From positions 1 through 26,891 of the IMG/VR virus record IMGVR_UViG_3300020202_000196: DNA of 26,891 nucleotides. One strand, 5' to 3'. The notes below the pieces were generated by a model. That model was not told the origin of the DNA and searched no databases. It was given only the letters and a program-made list of their open reading frames with translations. This DNA comes from a virus. Both the position numbers and the translations under genes were made by a program. Shown piece after piece: positions 148-22,984 of this stretch (position 1 is the stretch's first letter; every line of letters begins with the position of its first letter).

Positions 148-1500
148 CTATGCTGCGCTTACAAAGCGGGTAAATTCTTTTAAAAACACAAGCCCAACTT
201 TTCCTAGTGGGCCGTTACGCTGTTTTTCGACTAATAGGTTTACTTCGGGGTAAACGTCTTCAACGTTAGGATCTGCGGGTGGTGGTGTGTGTATTAGCAT
301 TACCACGTCTGCGTCGTTCTCAATATCACCCGCCTCTCGTAGGTCGCTCATTTGTGGTCTACGATCGTGGCGTTTCTCTACTTCGCGGTTGAGTTGGGCA
401 AGCTCAAGCACAGGGACATTTAGTTCTTTAGCTAATTTTTTCTTTGCTCTACTAATTTGGCCTACTTCTTGGTAGCGTTCCCGCTTGGGGTTATCTGCCT
501 TAAATAGCTGTAGATAGTCGCCAACAACAAGGTCTAAGCCATGTTCTTTTTTTATTTGTAGAGCTTTTAGTCGTAACTGGCTAGGTGTAAGGTCTGTAGT
601 ATCTTCAATGATAAGCTGTCCTGACCAATTGGCTATCTCGTTTAGGGCTTCGCCTAATTTCTCCCACTCGTCGCGGCCTAAATAACCAGAACGGTATAAA
701 TGGAGGTCTACTTTTGCGATACTGCAAAGCAAGCGGTCTGTTAACTCTTCCTTAGACATTTCGAGAGAAAAGAAGGCAACGACCTTGCCTATACTGGCAG
801 CGTGCGCGGCTATGTTTAGGGCTAACGCGCTCTTGCCCTGTCCTGGTCTAGCAGCCAGAACATACAAGCACCCTTTTTGTAAGCCGCAAGTAATGCGGTC
901 TAACTGGGAAAAGCCCGTTGGTATGCCTATTAGCTCACCTCGGCTACTAATTTCCTGTACTGCTGCTAAGCGGCTTTGTGCAATATCTACAAGTTTGGTG
1001 GCACCTACTTGCTCTGGCTTCTCTGTAGCAATGGTTAGGGTTTTGTTTATTCCGTCTACTACTTCGTTCCAGTCGGTGCCACTATCGTAAGCCAAACTTG
1101 CTATCAGGCTATTAGCCCGACCTACTTTGCGACGGCGACACGTATCTTTTATTCTTTTAATGCAATACTGGAAGTCATAGCACCAGTTTTGACCGTCTAT
1201 AAGACTAGCCAAATATGCACCTCCGCCGCTAGCTTCTAGAACGCCCTCTTTAGCCATTTCGTCGCGCACGGATAAAATATTAAAATTAGGATCTTGGTTA
1301 TAAGCTGCTACCATTCCTGCAAAGATCCTACGGTGCGAGATAATATAAAACTCTTCCTCTTTCAACTTGCTAGCAAGAACGTCCGGCATTATGCTGGTTT
1401 TCTCAAGTATATTGCCTAGTAACCGTGCTTCTGCCTCGCGGTCTTGGGGTATTTCTAAGTCTTCAAAGGTGTTTCTTTTTCGCTGTGCTTGCTTTGACAT
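148..1500 (-). CDS. dnaB: Replicative DNA helicase, DnaB family
   Basis: A 450-residue protein with the full architecture of hexameric DnaB helicases, which unwind DNA 5' to 3' at the fork. The N-terminal helical domain is at about 15-130 (DREAEARLLGNIL is the typical opening). The RecA-like motor follows, with Walker A ARPGQGKS at 217-224, Walker B ending in D328 (LVVGDYLQL), the ELAQLNREVEKR motif near 366-377 and the DLREAGDIENDADVV motif near 386-400. Length matches the family. No intein or frame break is seen. The gene follows the initiator with only 2 bases between them, a normal phage initiator-helicase pair; no separate helicase loader is visible. The start at 1500 is preceded by GGGAG at a usable distance. 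Confidence 0.95.
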   Translation of the reverse strand: MSKQAQRKRNTFEDLEIPQDREAEARLLGNILEKTSIMPDVLASKLKEEEFYIISHRRIFAGMVAAYNQDPNFNILSVRDEMAKEGVLEASGGGAYLASLIDGQNWCYDFQYCIKRIKDTCRRRKVGRANSLIASLAYDSGTDWNEVVDGINKTLTIATEKPEQVGATKLVDIAQSRLAAVQEISSRGELIGIPTGFSQLDRITCGLQKGCLYVLAARPGQGKSALALNIAAHAASIGKVVAFFSLEMSKEELTDRLLCSIAKVDLHLYRSGYLGRDEWEKLGEALNEIANWSGQLIIEDTTDLTPSQLRLKALQIKKEHGLDLVVGDYLQLFKADNPKRERYQEVGQISRAKKKLAKELNVPVLELAQLNREVEKRHDRRPQMSDLREAGDIENDADVVMLIHTPPPADPNVEDVYPEVNLLVEKQRNGPLGKVGLVFLKEFTRFVSAA

Positions 1501-1502
1501 GG

Positions 1503-2648
1503 CTATTTGCTCCCTTCAGTTTTTGCTTGTTGGCGTTGTGCGTCTATGGCGTCCATTTTTGCTAATGACCCACGCGGTTGCGGCTTTGCTGGGTTAGCAG
1601 TTGGTGTCGTTGTTGGTGGCTTTTGTTTGGGTCGAGAAGATATGTAACGACCAATGAACTCGTCTAACTTACTACTATTTCTGCAAATTAAAGTTAAGTC
1701 GTCATAGACTGTGTTAGTTGGGTTGCTTTGAGGGCTATTACCCATGTGGTGCGGCGAAGACTTACAACCGAGTATGCCATGTTGTATTTGTTCAACCGAA
1801 TAACCTTCCTGTAACCTACGTTGTATTAAACTACCACGTTCAGGGCTTAATATGGCTTGTGGGTGCCTCATTTCGGTTTTCCAAAATTCAAATATTTGGT
1901 TAACTTGTTCAGCATATTCCGGCGCGGGTTTAAAGTTTCCTTTGTTGCGTGGTTTAGTTTTAGGCTTAGTACTAGTTTCAGTCGGCTGTTTCTCTCCTGC
2001 TTTTTGCTGGTTAAGTTGGTTCGCTTCTTTTGGAATTTTTTCAGCTAAACTATCCCCGTCGAACGAAGGTTCGACATGTATATTTTCTTTCTGGGTTTCT
2101 ACTGGGTTTTGTGTGTCTGTTGAACAGACTAGGATCGGTCTGTTAGGCAGACTACCTTGGTCTGTTAGACAGACTACCTTGGTCTGTTGAACAGACTGTT
2201 TTTGTTTTCTTGCCTTATCAGTATTTTTTCTGTTTTGTTCAAGACGATCGTTGAAGCGTTTTTCTAGCCCCGCTACATCGACCTTTAACCCGTCAAATTG
2301 CAAGGTATAGCAGGCACCTAATTTTCTTTTAGCTTTTTCGCTTGTAGCAATTTCAACTATAAGGCCGTATTTCTTTAACTCGCCTAATGCTCTAACAATA
2401 GTCTCGCGACTTAACCCGGTGCCGTGGTCTAGTCTCTTGCTTCCGTCTTCTGTAGTTCGCCCGTGTTCAAACTGGCTAAGGCTGATATGGTCAACGCGCT
2501 TGTTAAAACCTACTATTAACCTAATTGTATAAAGCAATACTTTTAACTCATTGCCGTCTAGTAGGTGTAAGCAGTCGTCTACGTAGCTGTTATGTACTTG
2601 AAAAGTGTTTGGATATAAATGTAATTGTTGCTCTGCCATGTCGCTCAC
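1503..2648 (-). CDS. Phage replication initiator, lambda O-like with DnaD-like C-terminus
   Basis: About 381 residues. Residues ~15-120 form a winged-helix DNA-binding domain (ELKVLLYTIRLIVGFNKR, then TGLSRETIVRALGELKKYGL). Residues ~130-255 are a hydrophilic linker. Residues ~255-350 carry a conserved phage helicase-recruiting region, with the signatures FWKTEMRHPQAILSPERGSL, EGYSVEQIQHGILGCKSSPH and VYDDLTLICRNS. The linker DNA contains four iterons (2115-2196), the same arrangement as in lambda gene O, where the origin lies inside the initiator gene. The likely role is binding these iterons, melting the origin and delivering the DnaB encoded next door. The start could be GTG 2648 or ATG 2639; AAGG lies 3 or 12 bases upstream respectively, so this is undecided. 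Confidence 0.85.
   Translation of the reverse strand: MSDMAEQQLHLYPNTFQVHNSYVDDCLHLLDGNELKVLLYTIRLIVGFNKRVDHISLSQFEHGRTTEDGSKRLDHGTGLSRETIVRALGELKKYGLIVEIATSEKAKRKLGACYTLQFDGLKVDVAGLEKRFNDRLEQNRKNTDKARKQKQSVQQTKVVCLTDQGSLPNRPILVCSTDTQNPVETQKENIHVEPSFDGDSLAEKIPKEANQLNQQKAGEKQPTETSTKPKTKPRNKGNFKPAPEYAEQVNQIFEFWKTEMRHPQAILSPERGSLIQRRLQEGYSVEQIQHGILGCKSSPHHMGNSPQSNPTNTVYDDLTLICRNSSKLDEFIGRYISSRPKQKPPTTTPTANPAKPQPRGSLAKMDAIDAQRQQAKTEGSK
2115..2196. repeat. Four palindromic iterons, candidate replication origin
   Basis: Four copies of a 15-bp near-palindrome of the form GTCTGTTxxxCAGAC lie at 2115-2129, 2138-2152, 2160-2174 and 2182-2196. Start-to-start steps are 23, 22 and 22 bp, about two helical turns, so all copies face the same side of the DNA. 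They sit in the linker-coding part of the initiator gene. A T-rich stretch with few G or C begins at 2197, a likely melting region. The layout parallels lambda ori. Origin function is inferred. Confidence 0.75.
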
Positions 2649-9678: not shown

Positions 9679-9762
9679 GCAGGGACGAGCCTCGGTAGGC
9701 TGCGAAGTCTCATAAGCTTCGGTCTTTAATGACATTGTGGTGTTCAACTCCCACCCCTGCAA
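9679..9762 (+). tRNA. tRNA-like gene, anticodon CAT, initiator-like features
   Basis: An 84-base cloverleaf. Acceptor CGCAGGG pairs with CCCTGCA (six pairs plus a C1-A72 mismatch), and A73 is the discriminator. The D arm has GGTA in its loop. The anticodon stem GAAGT/GCTTC carries loop CTCATAA, so the anticodon is CAT. The variable arm is enlarged by a small GTC/GAC hairpin. The T loop GTTCAACTC matches the consensus, on stem GTGG-G/C-CCAC with one bulged T. The C1-A72 mismatch and CTCATAA loop are marks of bacterial initiator tRNA, but the three consecutive G-C pairs of the initiator anticodon stem are absent, and position 8 is not T. CCA is not encoded. It could be functional, divergent or degenerate. 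Confidence 0.6.
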
Positions 9763-12309: not shown

Positions 12310-12503
12310 TGAATACTAAAAAGGTTGTTTATTTAATGGTACAGAAGGGCAAGCAGGTTACACAGCGCATAGCTGAGAGCTTTACCAGCCCAACTCTACC
12401 ACCACCACAAACACAAAGCGAGATAGATAAGCGCGACCGTAACCAGCCAGCAGAGCGCGAAATAACTCGCCGCTTAGAAAAAATGGGGTACGAAAATGTC
12501 TAA
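12309..12503 (+). CDS. Small basic protein, unknown function
   Basis: 64 residues: a basic helix (KKVVYLMVQKGKQVTQRIAE), a proline-rich linker (TSPTLPPPQTQ), then a second charged helix (AEREITRRLEKMGYENV). It starts inside a TAATG and overlaps the next start by 8 bases, so translation is coupled. No domain is recognised. Confidence 0.55.
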   Translation: MNTKKVVYLMVQKGKQVTQRIAESFTSPTLPPPQTQSEIDKRDRNQPAEREITRRLEKMGYENV

Positions 12504-12723
12504 CGTAAATAACGAATTAACCACACGAGAAAAACAAGTATTAACCGAACTCGCTAATGGGCTAACCAGCAAGAAGGCAGGCGAGAAACTAGGCATTAGC
12601 CATAAAACCGTCGAAGCCCACAAGGAAAACATTTACAAGAAAACACGGCTAAGGAATATCGCCCAACTAACCAAGCTTGCTATCAACTTGGGCTTAACAA
12701 CCACCGACATAGTTTTAGCATAG
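12496..12723 (+). CDS. Stand-alone LuxR/GerE-type HTH protein
   Basis: 75 residues that are nearly all one LuxR-type DNA-binding domain: LTTREKQVLTELANGLTSKK at about 9-28, then AGEKLGISHKTVEAHKENIY as the helix-turn-helix (about 29-48), then KKTRLRNIAQLTKLAI. Key family positions (T-x-R-E, V-L, the TVExH recognition helix, N-I) are all present. There is no receiver or ligand domain, so it should bind DNA constitutively, perhaps as a dimer. Host response regulators use the same fold to bind DNA, so competition for host sites is one possibility. It overlaps the previous gene by 8 bases, and 11 bases separate it from the next. Confidence 0.85.
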   Translation: MSNVNNELTTREKQVLTELANGLTSKKAGEKLGISHKTVEAHKENIYKKTRLRNIAQLTKLAINLGLTTTDIVLA

Positions 12724-15665: not shown

Positions 15666-16595
15666 ATGGCTACAGAAAGTAGTATTGAATGGACTAAAAG
15701 TGACGACGGTACACCGGGCGCAACGTGGAACCCAGTTGTCGGCTGTTCTAAGGTGAGTACGGGCTGTTCTCGGTGCTATGCCATTAAGGACGCTTGGCGA
15801 ATGGCACACAACCCTAACCCAAAACTATCAAACGTTTATAGTGGGTTAGTCGAAAAGAAACCAGGAGGCAATTTAGAGTGGACAGGCGAAGTAAAGTGCA
15901 TAACTAAACGACTGTACATTCCTGGTGAATGGAAAACACCAAAACGTATTTTTGTTAACAGTCAAAGCGACTTGTTTCACCCAAGCGTGCCTTTTGAATT
16001 TATTGACGACGTGTTTTACGCAATACAACGGTACAACTGGCACACATACATAATACTTACTAAAAGACCAGATAGGCTTTTAGAGTGGGCTGACTCTACC
16101 AATTGCAGACATTACGACATATTAAGCATTGTGGAAAATTGCTGGATAGGTGTAAGCGTCGAAAACCAAGAGCAAGCGGATAAGAGAATACCACCATTAT
16201 TAGACTTACTTGGGCTTGCAGATAACCCACACCTTATAGGTTTTCTTAGTTGCGAGCCACTACTACAAGAAATAAAGATAGCACGGTTTTTCTGTCACTC
16301 TATCTTTTGCAAGAGCTATCCACGAAAAGACGAGCCTATGAGTTGGGCAACAAGTACTAATTGCACTTGTCCTAAACTTCGCTGGGTTATTGCTGGTGGC
16401 GAGTCTGGCTATAAAGCACGACCTATGCAAGAGAACTGGGCTAGGTCGCTTCAACAGCAATGCCAAGCCGCAAACGTGGCTTTCTTTTACAAGCAAAAGC
16501 TAGACGAGAAGGGCAAGAAAGTTAGCTTGCCGATACTAGACGGTCAAAGGTATGCAGAATTCCCGAAGCCGTGCGCGACGGGTATGGAGGGGTAA
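15666..16595 (+). CDS. DUF5131 (phage Gp37/Gp68) family protein
   Basis: 309 residues beginning with the diagnostic block TTW-like TWNPVVGCSKVSTGCSRCYA; C27, C34 and C37 form a CX6CX2C cluster that probably binds a metal or iron-sulphur centre. Further family marks are FVNSQSDLFHPSVPFEFIDD, WHTYIILTKRPDRL, NCWIGVSVENQEQAD, LSCEPLL and WVIAGGESGYKARPM, followed by FFYKQ. All are in the expected order and the length is typical. The three-Cys cluster and TIM-barrel-like motifs resemble radical-SAM enzymes, but the reaction is unknown to me. Relatives sometimes lie beside a 'three-Cys-motif partner' gene; none is visible here. Extra cysteines near 217-236 and 241-243 may form a second site. Confidence 0.9.
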   Translation: MATESSIEWTKSDDGTPGATWNPVVGCSKVSTGCSRCYAIKDAWRMAHNPNPKLSNVYSGLVEKKPGGNLEWTGEVKCITKRLYIPGEWKTPKRIFVNSQSDLFHPSVPFEFIDDVFYAIQRYNWHTYIILTKRPDRLLEWADSTNCRHYDILSIVENCWIGVSVENQEQADKRIPPLLDLLGLADNPHLIGFLSCEPLLQEIKIARFFCHSIFCKSYPRKDEPMSWATSTNCTCPKLRWVIAGGESGYKARPMQENWARSLQQQCQAANVAFFYKQKLDEKGKKVSLPILDGQRYAEFPKPCATGMEG

Positions 16596-20264: not shown

Positions 20265-21081
20265 ACCTTTTCGCCTTATTATCGAGTGTGGGTGGTTGGC
20301 CAACAGGTCTTATATCTGGGTGTTCTACCGCACCGACGAGAACGGGCGACGCTACGAAGTCGGGCGAGGTAGTTTTAACACGCTGGTCAAAATGACCGAC
20401 TACCTTATACGGAAAAATTTAATTTGCCGTATTTGTGATATATGCGGCAACCCCTATGCTCCTTATAGCGGCAAACAACGCTTTTGTAAGAGCCATAGCG
20501 GAACAGAAGTAAGAAACTATTACTATAATTTGAAAAAGGAGAAAAAGAGCAATGAAATACATGAAGAAAGACCAAATACTGAGGTGCATATCAACAGCAA
20601 CGAAACTCAAACAGATAGAAGTAGAGAAAGTGCTAGTAGCATTAGCGTCAATAGTCCAAGCAGAGACGAAGGAAAACCGACTATTCGTCTTGCCGGAAAT
20701 AGGACGCTTCAAATTAGTAACTCGTCAGGCCAAAATGGGCATAAACCCACAAACAAAACAACGGATAAGGATACCGAGCAAACAAGCGGTGAAATTTGTC
20801 GCAGCAAAACAACTCCGCGAAGCAGTGAAGTAAAGCACGTCAACGGTATTTATAAATGTGTGCGTTGTGCTACCAAATGCCATTACAAAGGGCAGTCACC
20901 TTTTCCAAAGCACTGCCCTAGCTGCCGCAGAGACTTAGAGCGGGCTGAGCAAGGGGTAGAGGAGAAGCCGCGCACATTCAAAATGCTGCAAAACTTAAGG
21001 AATAGCGAGTATAGGGTCAAAGAAATTGTCGAGCCAAAGGTGCTGGGGAAAGTACTTGGCGGTGGCAAGAAATTTTTGTAG
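20245..21081 (+). CDS. Zinc-finger protein frame that contains the HU gene
   Basis: 278 residues from ATG 20245 (AAGGA upstream). Residues 1-100 look like a complete small protein: a beta-rich part (FRLIIECGWLANRSYIWVFY), then a zinc knuckle CDICGNPYAPYSGKQRFCKS and a basic end. Residues ~103-196 are Ser/Thr/Asn/Lys-rich with no fold and coincide exactly with the HU gene in another frame. Residues ~200-278 resume a folded pattern with CVRC and CPSC, a zinc ribbon. The C-terminal part has no good start of its own, so either the whole frame is translated with HU nested inside, or it is two zinc-finger genes fused by the chance lack of stops. Part of it is certainly real; its full length is uncertain. 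Confidence 0.55.
   Translation: MPVTNSKPFRLIIECGWLANRSYIWVFYRTDENGRRYEVGRGSFNTLVKMTDYLIRKNLICRICDICGNPYAPYSGKQRFCKSHSGTEVRNYYYNLKKEKKSNEIHEERPNTEVHINSNETQTDRSRESASSISVNSPSRDEGKPTIRLAGNRTLQISNSSGQNGHKPTNKTTDKDTEQTSGEICRSKTTPRSSEVKHVNGIYKCVRCATKCHYKGQSPFPKHCPSCRRDLERAEQGVEEKPRTFKMLQNLRNSEYRVKEIVEPKVLGKVLGGGKKFL
20552..20833 (+). CDS. hup: HU/IHF-family DNA-bending protein
   Basis: 93 residues covering a full HU fold: helices at 4-45 (MKKDQILRCISTATKLKQIE with VEKVLVALASIVQ), then the beta arm with the family signature GRFKLVTRQAKMGINPQT, in which the NP at the arm tip that intercalates DNA is present, then IRIPSKQAVKFVAAKQLREA. HU bends and compacts DNA and assists replication, recombination and integrase complexes. 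AAGGAG lies 10 bases before the ATG, the best ribosome site in this stretch. The entire gene lies inside another open frame (20245-21081), which is unusual. A dimer is the expected working form. Confidence 0.92.
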   Translation: MKYMKKDQILRCISTATKLKQIEVEKVLVALASIVQAETKENRLFVLPEIGRFKLVTRQAKMGINPQTKQRIRIPSKQAVKFVAAKQLREAVK

Positions 21082-21619: not shown

Positions 21620-22753
21620 CTAATTAACCAACTCACGCTTCTCTTCTTCCTTTTTATCTTTTTCCTGCCAATTATCCAAAGCTTGTGCTACTTGCTTTGC
21701 CGTGTCAGCGTTCGCGTTGACATAGCGGTAAGTAGTATTTGCTTGAGTGTGTCCCAATATCCGCCCGACTTGCTGCAAGGGAATGCCCGCCTCTATCATA
21801 CGCGTTGCTGCGGTGTGGCGTAGGTCGTGGAAACGGAGGTCTTGCAGGCCGCAATTAGTGCGAAGTGTGCCAAATGCTTTCTTGCAGTTATCTATCCCAA
21901 ATACCTTACTATCTAGCACGCCTTTACTCTTCAACCACATAACCCACAACTCATTATAGAGCCGTGTCGTCATTGCGGCTTGTCGCTCTGTTAGCGTTTT
22001 TGTATTAAACGCCCGAATATTAATAAGCCTAGTAGCCCAATTAATGTCACGCCACACCAACTTAAATATTTCACCTTGTCGCATTCCAGTATCTAAAGCA
22101 CATACTAATATTGGTTTTAGGTGACTAGATCTGCCTGTACAGCCTTCTAATAATAATGTCTCTTCTTCACGGCTTAGTATTCTTTGCCTTTTCTTCTCGT
22201 CGGCGACAGATATTAAAGAGTCACCTTGGGTAAACGGGTTCTGTTTTATCCAGCCTTCTTGCTTGGCTATTTGTAAAGCACGACGTAAATAATTTAGTTC
22301 CCTGTTAACAGTAGCTATTGATCTTTGCTTTTTATCTTTAGTAGGTGTTTTTAGTCTTGTTACCCTATAAGCCGCTATGTCACTCCATTTAATGCTTTTG
22401 ACTAGTCTATTGCCAAAATATTCTTGTGCTGGCTTAAATTGAAACCGGGCAGTTTCGTAAGAACGCAACCCGGCAACTTTACGGCCTTCTAGATATTCAG
22501 GTTTTTGTAGGTAATTATCAATGTAGTAATTGGCTAGTTGGTTAAAAGTGATCTTGTCGCCTTCTAGTATATCAACACCGTGATCGTCTAATTCGCGGAG
22601 TATTTGTTTTTTAAGTTCTTTAGCGTGGGTTCTATTTTCGGCTATTCGTTGTATTTGTTTTCGCTTGCCTGTTATTTCGTCTACCCAAGTAACTCGTGCA
22701 TAAACTTTGCCGTCTTTGGTTATGCGCACTGACCCTGTTCTTTCCCGCCCCAT
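21620..22753 (-). CDS. int: Tyrosine integrase
   Basis: 377 residues from ATG 22753, chosen for AGGTGG upstream; a longer frame begins inside the tRNA fragment and reads GVRVPPGALLF, the usual false start over a tRNA end. The N-terminus (residues 1-60, GSVRITKDGKVYARVTWVDE) is an AP2-like arm-binding domain, ~65-165 is the core-binding domain, and ~180-360 is catalytic: Arg in DTGMRQGEIFKL, Lys in AFNTKT, HDLRHTAATRM (His and Arg), LGH and the Tyr nucleophile in TTYRYVN. All six active residues are present. It would integrate the phage at the tRNA-Arg site 85 bases upstream. Arm-type repeats overlap its ribosome site, so it may repress itself. Confidence 0.95.
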   Translation of the reverse strand: MGRERTGSVRITKDGKVYARVTWVDEITGKRKQIQRIAENRTHAKELKKQILRELDDHGVDILEGDKITFNQLANYYIDNYLQKPEYLEGRKVAGLRSYETARFQFKPAQEYFGNRLVKSIKWSDIAAYRVTRLKTPTKDKKQRSIATVNRELNYLRRALQIAKQEGWIKQNPFTQGDSLISVADEKKRQRILSREEETLLLEGCTGRSSHLKPILVCALDTGMRQGEIFKLVWRDINWATRLINIRAFNTKTLTERQAAMTTRLYNELWVMWLKSKGVLDSKVFGIDNCKKAFGTLRTNCGLQDLRFHDLRHTAATRMIEAGIPLQQVGRILGHTQANTTYRYVNANADTAKQVAQALDNWQEKDKKEEEKRELVN

Positions 22754-22757
22754 GTTC

Positions 22758-22984
22758 TTACCACCTATCTTGCCACTTTTACCACTTATTTTGTGGTTGT
22801 GAGTTAAGTTGTAAGTGCTTTGCGGGAAAAAGAGTAACGCACCCGGAGGGACTCGAACCCCCAACACCTAGATCCGAAGTCTAGTGAAAATTAAAAACAC
22901 TGTTGCTGTTAAGCCAATAAATATTATCACTTACACCAGATCAATTTACGCGTACTATTATTTTTACCACTTACGTTGCCACTT
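22758..22984. repeat. Integrase arm-type sites (consensus TTRCCACTT)
   Basis: Nonamers in the same orientation flank the tRNA core. Left side: TTACCACCT 22758-22766, TTGCCACTT 22770-22778 and TTACCACTT 22779-22787. Right side: TTATCACTT 22924-22932, TTACCACTT 22964-22972 and TTGCCACTT 22976-22984; a weaker AACCCACTT is at 23077-23085. Pairs of short direct repeats on both sides of the crossover core are the hallmark of attP sites bound by two-domain integrases. Confidence 0.7.
22838..22884 (-). other. attP core: 3' part of tRNA-Arg (anticodon TCG)
   Basis: Read on the minus strand, these 47 bases are tRNA positions 27-73: anticodon stem CTAGA/TCTAG with loop CTTCGGA (anticodon TCG), variable loop GTGTT, T arm GGGGG-TTCGAGT-CCCTC, acceptor strand CGGGTGC and discriminator G. 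The acceptor 5' strand and D arm are absent, and AT-rich sequence follows at 22885, so this is not a complete tRNA. It is the identity segment that restores a host tRNA gene on integration. Phage-type genes on both sides suggest an intact attP rather than a prophage end. Confidence 0.85.

Follow-up and report, generated by a model that had tools for sequence, protein, structure and literature searches.

Modular exchange is known among lambdoid phages, of which lambda, P22 and phage L each carry iterons of their own within their own initiator gene (PMC8022706). How opening of the strands is directed in the lambda origin remains under debate, and a 2024 review (PMC10797057) cites sequence repeats in the unwinding region of lambda. 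Three classic mutations, namely the origin point mutant ti12 (C39122 to A) and the deletions r99 (39120-39131) and r95 (39123-39134; PMC6022878), are placed by the authors in the interval of the fourth iteron or in the AT-rich arm (PMC6022878, PMC4488673). Since O from ti12 or r95 alleles complements in trans (PMC6022878), the defect lies in the DNA and not in O. In ti12 and r99, phage growth is down at least ten-fold, O binding amounts to 49% and 35%, and S1 sensitivity runs parallel (PMC4488673). No statement of cross-phage conservation of the mutated sequence was found in these two papers.

Here, a locus is described in a linear viral contig of 26,891 bases (the window), which in all likelihood is where a temperate phage starts theta replication and which would belong, as a divergent member, to the lambda/P22 family of origins, judging from its sequence and by analogy with both systems. 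The locus widens the known family by a further iteron/initiator pair; the greater interest lies in the comparison of a short box among about 40 relatives rather than in the locus itself.

An iteron array within the linker segment of an O-like initiator gene

The initiator (Table 1) comprises a winged-helix N-domain (aa ~10-120), an iteron-bearing linker and an O-like C-domain (aa ~240-335). Four perfect palindromes of the form GTCTG-N5-CAGAC (5-5-5), at steps of 23, 22 and 22 bp, occupy codons 151-178 of the 381-codon gene; the four 15-bp repeats reported in a first-pass annotation were recovered with the same spacing and coordinates. The pattern has no site beyond these four in the whole contig, and the array is the foremost iteron-like array of the window, with a score of 10 vs 6 for the runner-up. 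Dyads are found at 0/22/44/67 bp, vs 0/20/44/67 bp in lambda, both spans thus being 67 bp; at 10.5 bp per turn, this corresponds to 0, 2.10, 4.19 and 6.38 turns in the window and 0, 1.90, 4.19 and 6.38 turns in lambda. Hence, the helical phasing previously ascribed to the sites holds approximately.

Table 1. Coordinates of the features at the locus, in positions of the window
Feature	Position	Strand	Remarks
DnaB-type replicative helicase	148..1500	-	Pfam DnaB_C 1.4e-85, DnaB N 1e-16
O-like replication initiator gene, 381 aa	1503..2648	-	GTG start 2648; alternative ATG start 2639
Putative DNA-unwinding element	2075..2114	-	65% AT, AAACCCAG x2 (direct repeat); position inferred by analogy with lambda
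Junction box ACACAAAA	2107..2114	-	abuts last iteron; ACAAAA starts 10 nt past dyad
Iteron 4 (last)	2115..2129	-	GTCTGTTCAACAGAC on gene strand
Iteron 3	2138..2152	-	GTCTGCCTAACAGAC on gene strand
Iteron 2	2160..2174	-	GTCTGTCTAACAGAC on gene strand
Iteron 1 (first, gene direction)	2182..2196	-	GTCTGTTCAACAGAC on gene strand

Because the four iterons fall into codon frames 2, 0, 1 and 0, thereby using all three, and because 3,000 synonymous-codon shuffles of the initiator gene yielded at most two copies of the motif and never four, the constraint acts on the DNA and not on the peptide. The opposite explanation, which derives the DNA repeats from a peptide motif recurring in a disordered linker, draws on the similarity of VCLTD and VCSTD. 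The peptide type CLTDQ/VCSTD noted earlier applies to the two iterons encoding these, but not to the other two, which yield QSVQQT and SLPNRP. The differing peptides and frames, the shuffles and a relative (L005, see below) that keeps its DNA repeat in rotating frames refute this explanation for the four copies, and its overall probability is vanishingly small.

Both flanks of the array are rich in AT, in line with the T-rich DNA already noted beside it: the 40 bp past the last iteron in gene direction contain 65% AT and the 40 bp ahead of the first 75%, vs 58% in the gene. The putative unwinding element, with its 65% AT, ranks in instability at the 84th percentile of the gene, compared to the 99th percentile and 77.5% AT in lambda, whereas the T-rich stretch across the array from the box is less stable and more AT-rich. 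Hence, the side of opening is uncertain in the window phage. The cumulative GC skew of the window has its minimum at ~10,050 and its maximum at ~21,550, with no extreme at 2150; a turn of the skew at the array, proposed earlier as a check, is not seen, and skew lends the origin no support. Since the window is a linear fragment, further origins may lie elsewhere.

Other features of the window include a weak tRNA-like match (Rfam tRNA, 29.9 bits) at 22838-22906 (-), at the start of an integrase gene (21620-22867), which looks like a tRNA end serving as attachment site and marking a temperate phage. At 9679-9761 (+), a tRNA-Met (anticodon CAT) was found by ARAGORN, while it is not listed by Rfam at gathering score. 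The rightward region encodes an HU-type DNA-binding protein (20552-20833, +) and a LuxR-type HTH protein (12496-12723, +).

Relatives of the initiator, its neighbour and its array

Several profiles connect the initiator to the O-type proteins. PHROG 18020 'replication initiation O-like' matches at 5e-28, its best stretch being the C-half, and phrog_678 (1e-12) extends across most of the protein. The score for Pfam Phage_rep_O, 18.2 bits, stays under the cut-off of 28.7, apparently owing to an insertion in the N-domain that is common to the window and L005, whereas other relatives reach 38-47 bits. The N-domain is 40-41% identical to O proteins of Acinetobacter phages, whose group has members passing this cut-off, and the C-domain is up to 48% identical to those of several marine and Acinetobacter phages. 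Moreover, the invariant R and G of the motif RxxxG(W/F)NK are common to the N-domain group of the window and lambda O. An AlphaFold2 model of the N-domain, based on an alignment of 32 relatives, predicts a winged helix (pLDDT 89, pTM 0.81), and among the viral structures it matches best are models labelled lambda GpO N-terminal. On the other hand, a single-protein search of viral contigs with the whole initiator gave no close relatives, a PDB sequence search returned no match and the profile only generic winged helices. Foldseek and VIA-align likewise retrieved only generic winged helices from the PDB, with no row clearly best, and no lambda-O entry occurs among the PDB structure matches, an absence that is no evidence either way. 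An iteron plasmid of the RepA/Rep_3 type was rejected as a candidate because the iterons lie inside the gene and the initiator has no Rep_3/RepA match in Pfam.

Judged by sequence and predicted fold, the N-domain is a distant relative of lambda O. The first-pass annotation had regarded both protein and iterons as seemingly unrelated in sequence to those of lambda, implying an independent design in which an unrelated initiator converged on the lambda layout. It is true that the iterons have no sequence match to those of lambda and that Phage_rep_O remains under its cut-off; however, unlike iterons are no proof of independent design, since iteron sequence varies from phage to phage throughout the O family. 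With regard to the protein, the claim is contradicted by the PHROG assignment, by homology via intermediates (L005 at 49%, Acinetobacter O at up to 41%), by the R and G shared with lambda O and by the predicted fold, which renders convergence very improbable.

L005 emerged from a pattern scan for two adjacent GTCTGTTNNNCAGAC sites in 2.9 million viral contigs as the one contig found, with the match inside an initiator gene. Its N-domain is 49% identical to that of the window, and its six iterons follow each other in 23-bp steps, the codon frame rotating at each. Past the linker, the two initiators have no convincing alignment, and the gene downstream encodes a Toprim/DnaB_C primase-helicase unrelated to the window helicase. 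The pair constitutes a natural experiment, in which the iteron accompanies the N-domain and the C-half and helicase have been exchanged, a pattern consistent with the modular exchange known in lambdoid phages; by sequence comparison, iteron and N-domain appear to stay paired and C-half and helicase to be exchangeable. A looser iteron pattern gave one more match, L035, in a DUF1376-type initiator gene, which was rejected as a true relative and taken as chance or convergent on account of an N-domain resembling that of a different family. L035 possesses direct repeats of its own in the initiator linker (944-995; GTCTGTTGAACGGAC-like, in 22-bp steps), which contain GTTGAACGTC. Both iteron-sharing contigs also carry a DUF5131 gene (window 15666-16595, +; L005 1578-2624, -), and a sequence partly homologous to Gad1, an anti-defence protein against Gabija, is located just upstream of the initiator in L005 (8677-9303, -).

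The gene directly downstream of the window initiator encodes a DnaB-type helicase, which is likely the partner of the initiator, in the same order as in P22 gp12 and HK97, while a P-type loader gene is absent at this place. Because of this adjoining helicase gene, the layout is P22-like (gp18 + gp12) and not that of lambda O/P. The lambda-style origin within the initiator gene proposed at the outset is strongly supported by comparison with relatives, with a neighbourhood closer to P22. Relatives of the helicase are 26-39% identical, and sequence searches starting from them reached no closely related initiator.

For a survey of the family, N-domain alignment scans and named phages were combined into a set of 114 O-type genes in 48 clusters (70% N-domain identity); once O proteins of greater divergence were included, the alignment became too variable to serve for searching. 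An iteron array follows the N-domain in 43 of the 48 clusters, with 3-6 sites whose steps peak at 22-24 bp. Each cluster features its own iteron sequence, with arms such as GTAAA/TTTAC, GTCGG/CCGAC, GTGAA/TTCAC, GTTACC/GGTAAC and TCCC/GGGA among others, and a four-iteron span of 66-68 bp recurs in the window, lambda, P22, HK97 and several others. Thus, homologues that retain the linker while losing the repeats, which would speak against the origin, are not the rule; on the contrary, arrays are kept despite changing codons and sequence. Four initiators (L006, L012, L016, L017) combine the same C-domain with a different N-domain and exhibit 21-bp linker repeats; as this length is a codon multiple, protein and DNA repeat are indistinguishable there.

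Alternatively, the palindromes might serve as operators for the helicase operon, bound by the initiator or a phage regulator, with the origin located elsewhere. Perfect palindromes resemble operators, the helicase gene lies downstream of the sites, and autoregulation could coexist with origin function. Nevertheless, the sites sit in the middle of the initiator gene, 0.6 kb away from where the helicase gene starts, and this part of the initiator gene holds the proven origin of lambda and the annotated one of P22. Moreover, arrays of 3-6 sites at 22-24 bp persist in 43 of 48 clusters although their sequence changes, and are mostly followed by a conserved box (32/43). A purely operator role is therefore quite improbable.

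A conserved box beside the last iteron

Adjacent to the last iteron lies a box (Table 1) that had been missed in the first-pass annotation. At the corresponding position, this box recurs in lambda, P22, HK97 and some 30 further clusters, its carriers including the window, L005, a Mannheimia phage and prophages of Acinetobacter and Pasteurellaceae. In these, ACACAAA or a near variant, often ACACAAAAGACA, directly follows the last iteron, with further ACAAAAGACA-like repeats beyond. With array registers set automatically, ACAA[AT] starts 9-12.5 nt past the last dyad in 33/43 clusters, with a mode of 10 and codon frames of 19/4/10, and under a stricter rule the box is present in 32/43 clusters vs 5/146 inner iterons (Fisher 1e-21). 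The position matrix reads ACAA, which is invariant by construction, followed by A/t, A and a majority of G A C A A. In initiators that share only the C-domain and have another N-domain, the box is absent at that place. The lambda box extends over ~39119-39130 (coordinates checked on L013), where ti12 changes the invariant C of ACAAAA and the r99 and r95 deletions fall in the box. Phages with otherwise unrelated iterons have in common a box that is hit by these classic mutations.

The box could also be non-specific, reflecting preferred codons (peptides of the DTK/TQN type) or A-rich melting DNA of a generic kind. Protein composition alone produces it in 22% of synonymous shuffles, it sits in A-rich DNA, and the relatives are not independent. 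In addition, in a second sample drawn from whole genomes, the strict rule held in just 3 of 10 new arrays, while visual inspection revealed the box or a close variant in three more, e.g. ACTCAAAAGAAAG. These points are opposed by the 32/43 clusters observed against an expected 0.22 (binomial 6e-13, for clusters related by descent), by the fixed distance of 10-11 nt from the dyad in all three frames, by the absence of the box where the N-domain is a different one, and by the lambda mutant, in which a single C-to-A exchange at the invariant C impairs the origin without lowering its AT content. On balance, an unspecific box is somewhat unlikely, though it is to be taken seriously.

Tentatively, and with a confidence somewhat below even, ACACAAAA(GACA) at its fixed distance may be regarded as a second, so far unrecognised element of lambda-family origins, which would be conserved as DNA although iterons, C-domains and helicases differ, and be read by the N-domain of O or a host factor where strand opening starts, as DnaA-trios are at oriC. 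Because the window and L005 share the box but neither C-half nor helicase, candidates for any reader are the N-domain, a host factor or the melting behaviour of the DNA itself. Judging from the anatomy, the box would most likely melt first and/or be contacted by the N-domain (or a host factor) at the border of the unwinding element; as to the debated question of how opening is directed, a position-fixed box would provide a definite sequence for the first bases opened or contacted. A search of the literature on the box sequence and lambdoid origins, which left the founding papers of 1977-1983 outside, turned up no account that treats it as conserved, and priority is not claimable.

Modelled on lambda and P22, initiator dimers would bind the four iterons in their own gene via the winged-helix N-domain and wrap the DNA, which in turn would open the A-rich stretch beginning at the box (2114-2107). 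Subsequently, the C-domain would bring the DnaB-type helicase, encoded by the phage next to the initiator, onto the opened strand.

Comparison with described systems

A distant analogy to the box is offered by the DnaA-trio and the DnaD recognition element of bacterial oriC (PMC10797057, PMC10201434), which are short single-strand motifs at the unwinding region, beside the double-strand sites of the initiator; proteins and sequence differ, and strand binding at the phage box is putative. The O origins of Stx phages comprise six iterons in the O gene, a number comparable to the six of L005, but feature lambda-type iteron sequence and a P loader (PMC7466680). In replication protein O of Acinetobacter prophages (e.g. 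L117, vB_AbaSI_1), ~40% N-domain identity is accompanied by palindromes at 22-23 bp and the ACACAAA box, whereas the iteron arms are GTAAA/TTTAC and the C-domain is unrelated to that of the window.

Lambda O and ori-lambda share with the locus four inverted-repeat iterons in the O linker, an O-type winged-helix N-domain and an adjoining A-rich stretch, in the window a putative unwinding element, that starts with ACACAAAA. They differ in iteron sequence, in the AT bias beside the array, which is weaker in the window (65% vs 77.5%), and in the use of the loader P with host DnaB instead of a phage DnaB-type helicase. P22 gene 18/gene 12 and the O/DnaB-like pair of HK97 are distinguished by iteron sequence, by the N-domain insertion of the window initiator and its C-domain of another subgroup, and by the operon of the window running on the opposite strand, in a genome fragment that is mosaic. 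In common with the window, they have the origin within an O-like initiator gene, four iterons over 67 bp, ACACAAAAGACA abutting the last iteron and a DnaB-type helicase gene immediately downstream.
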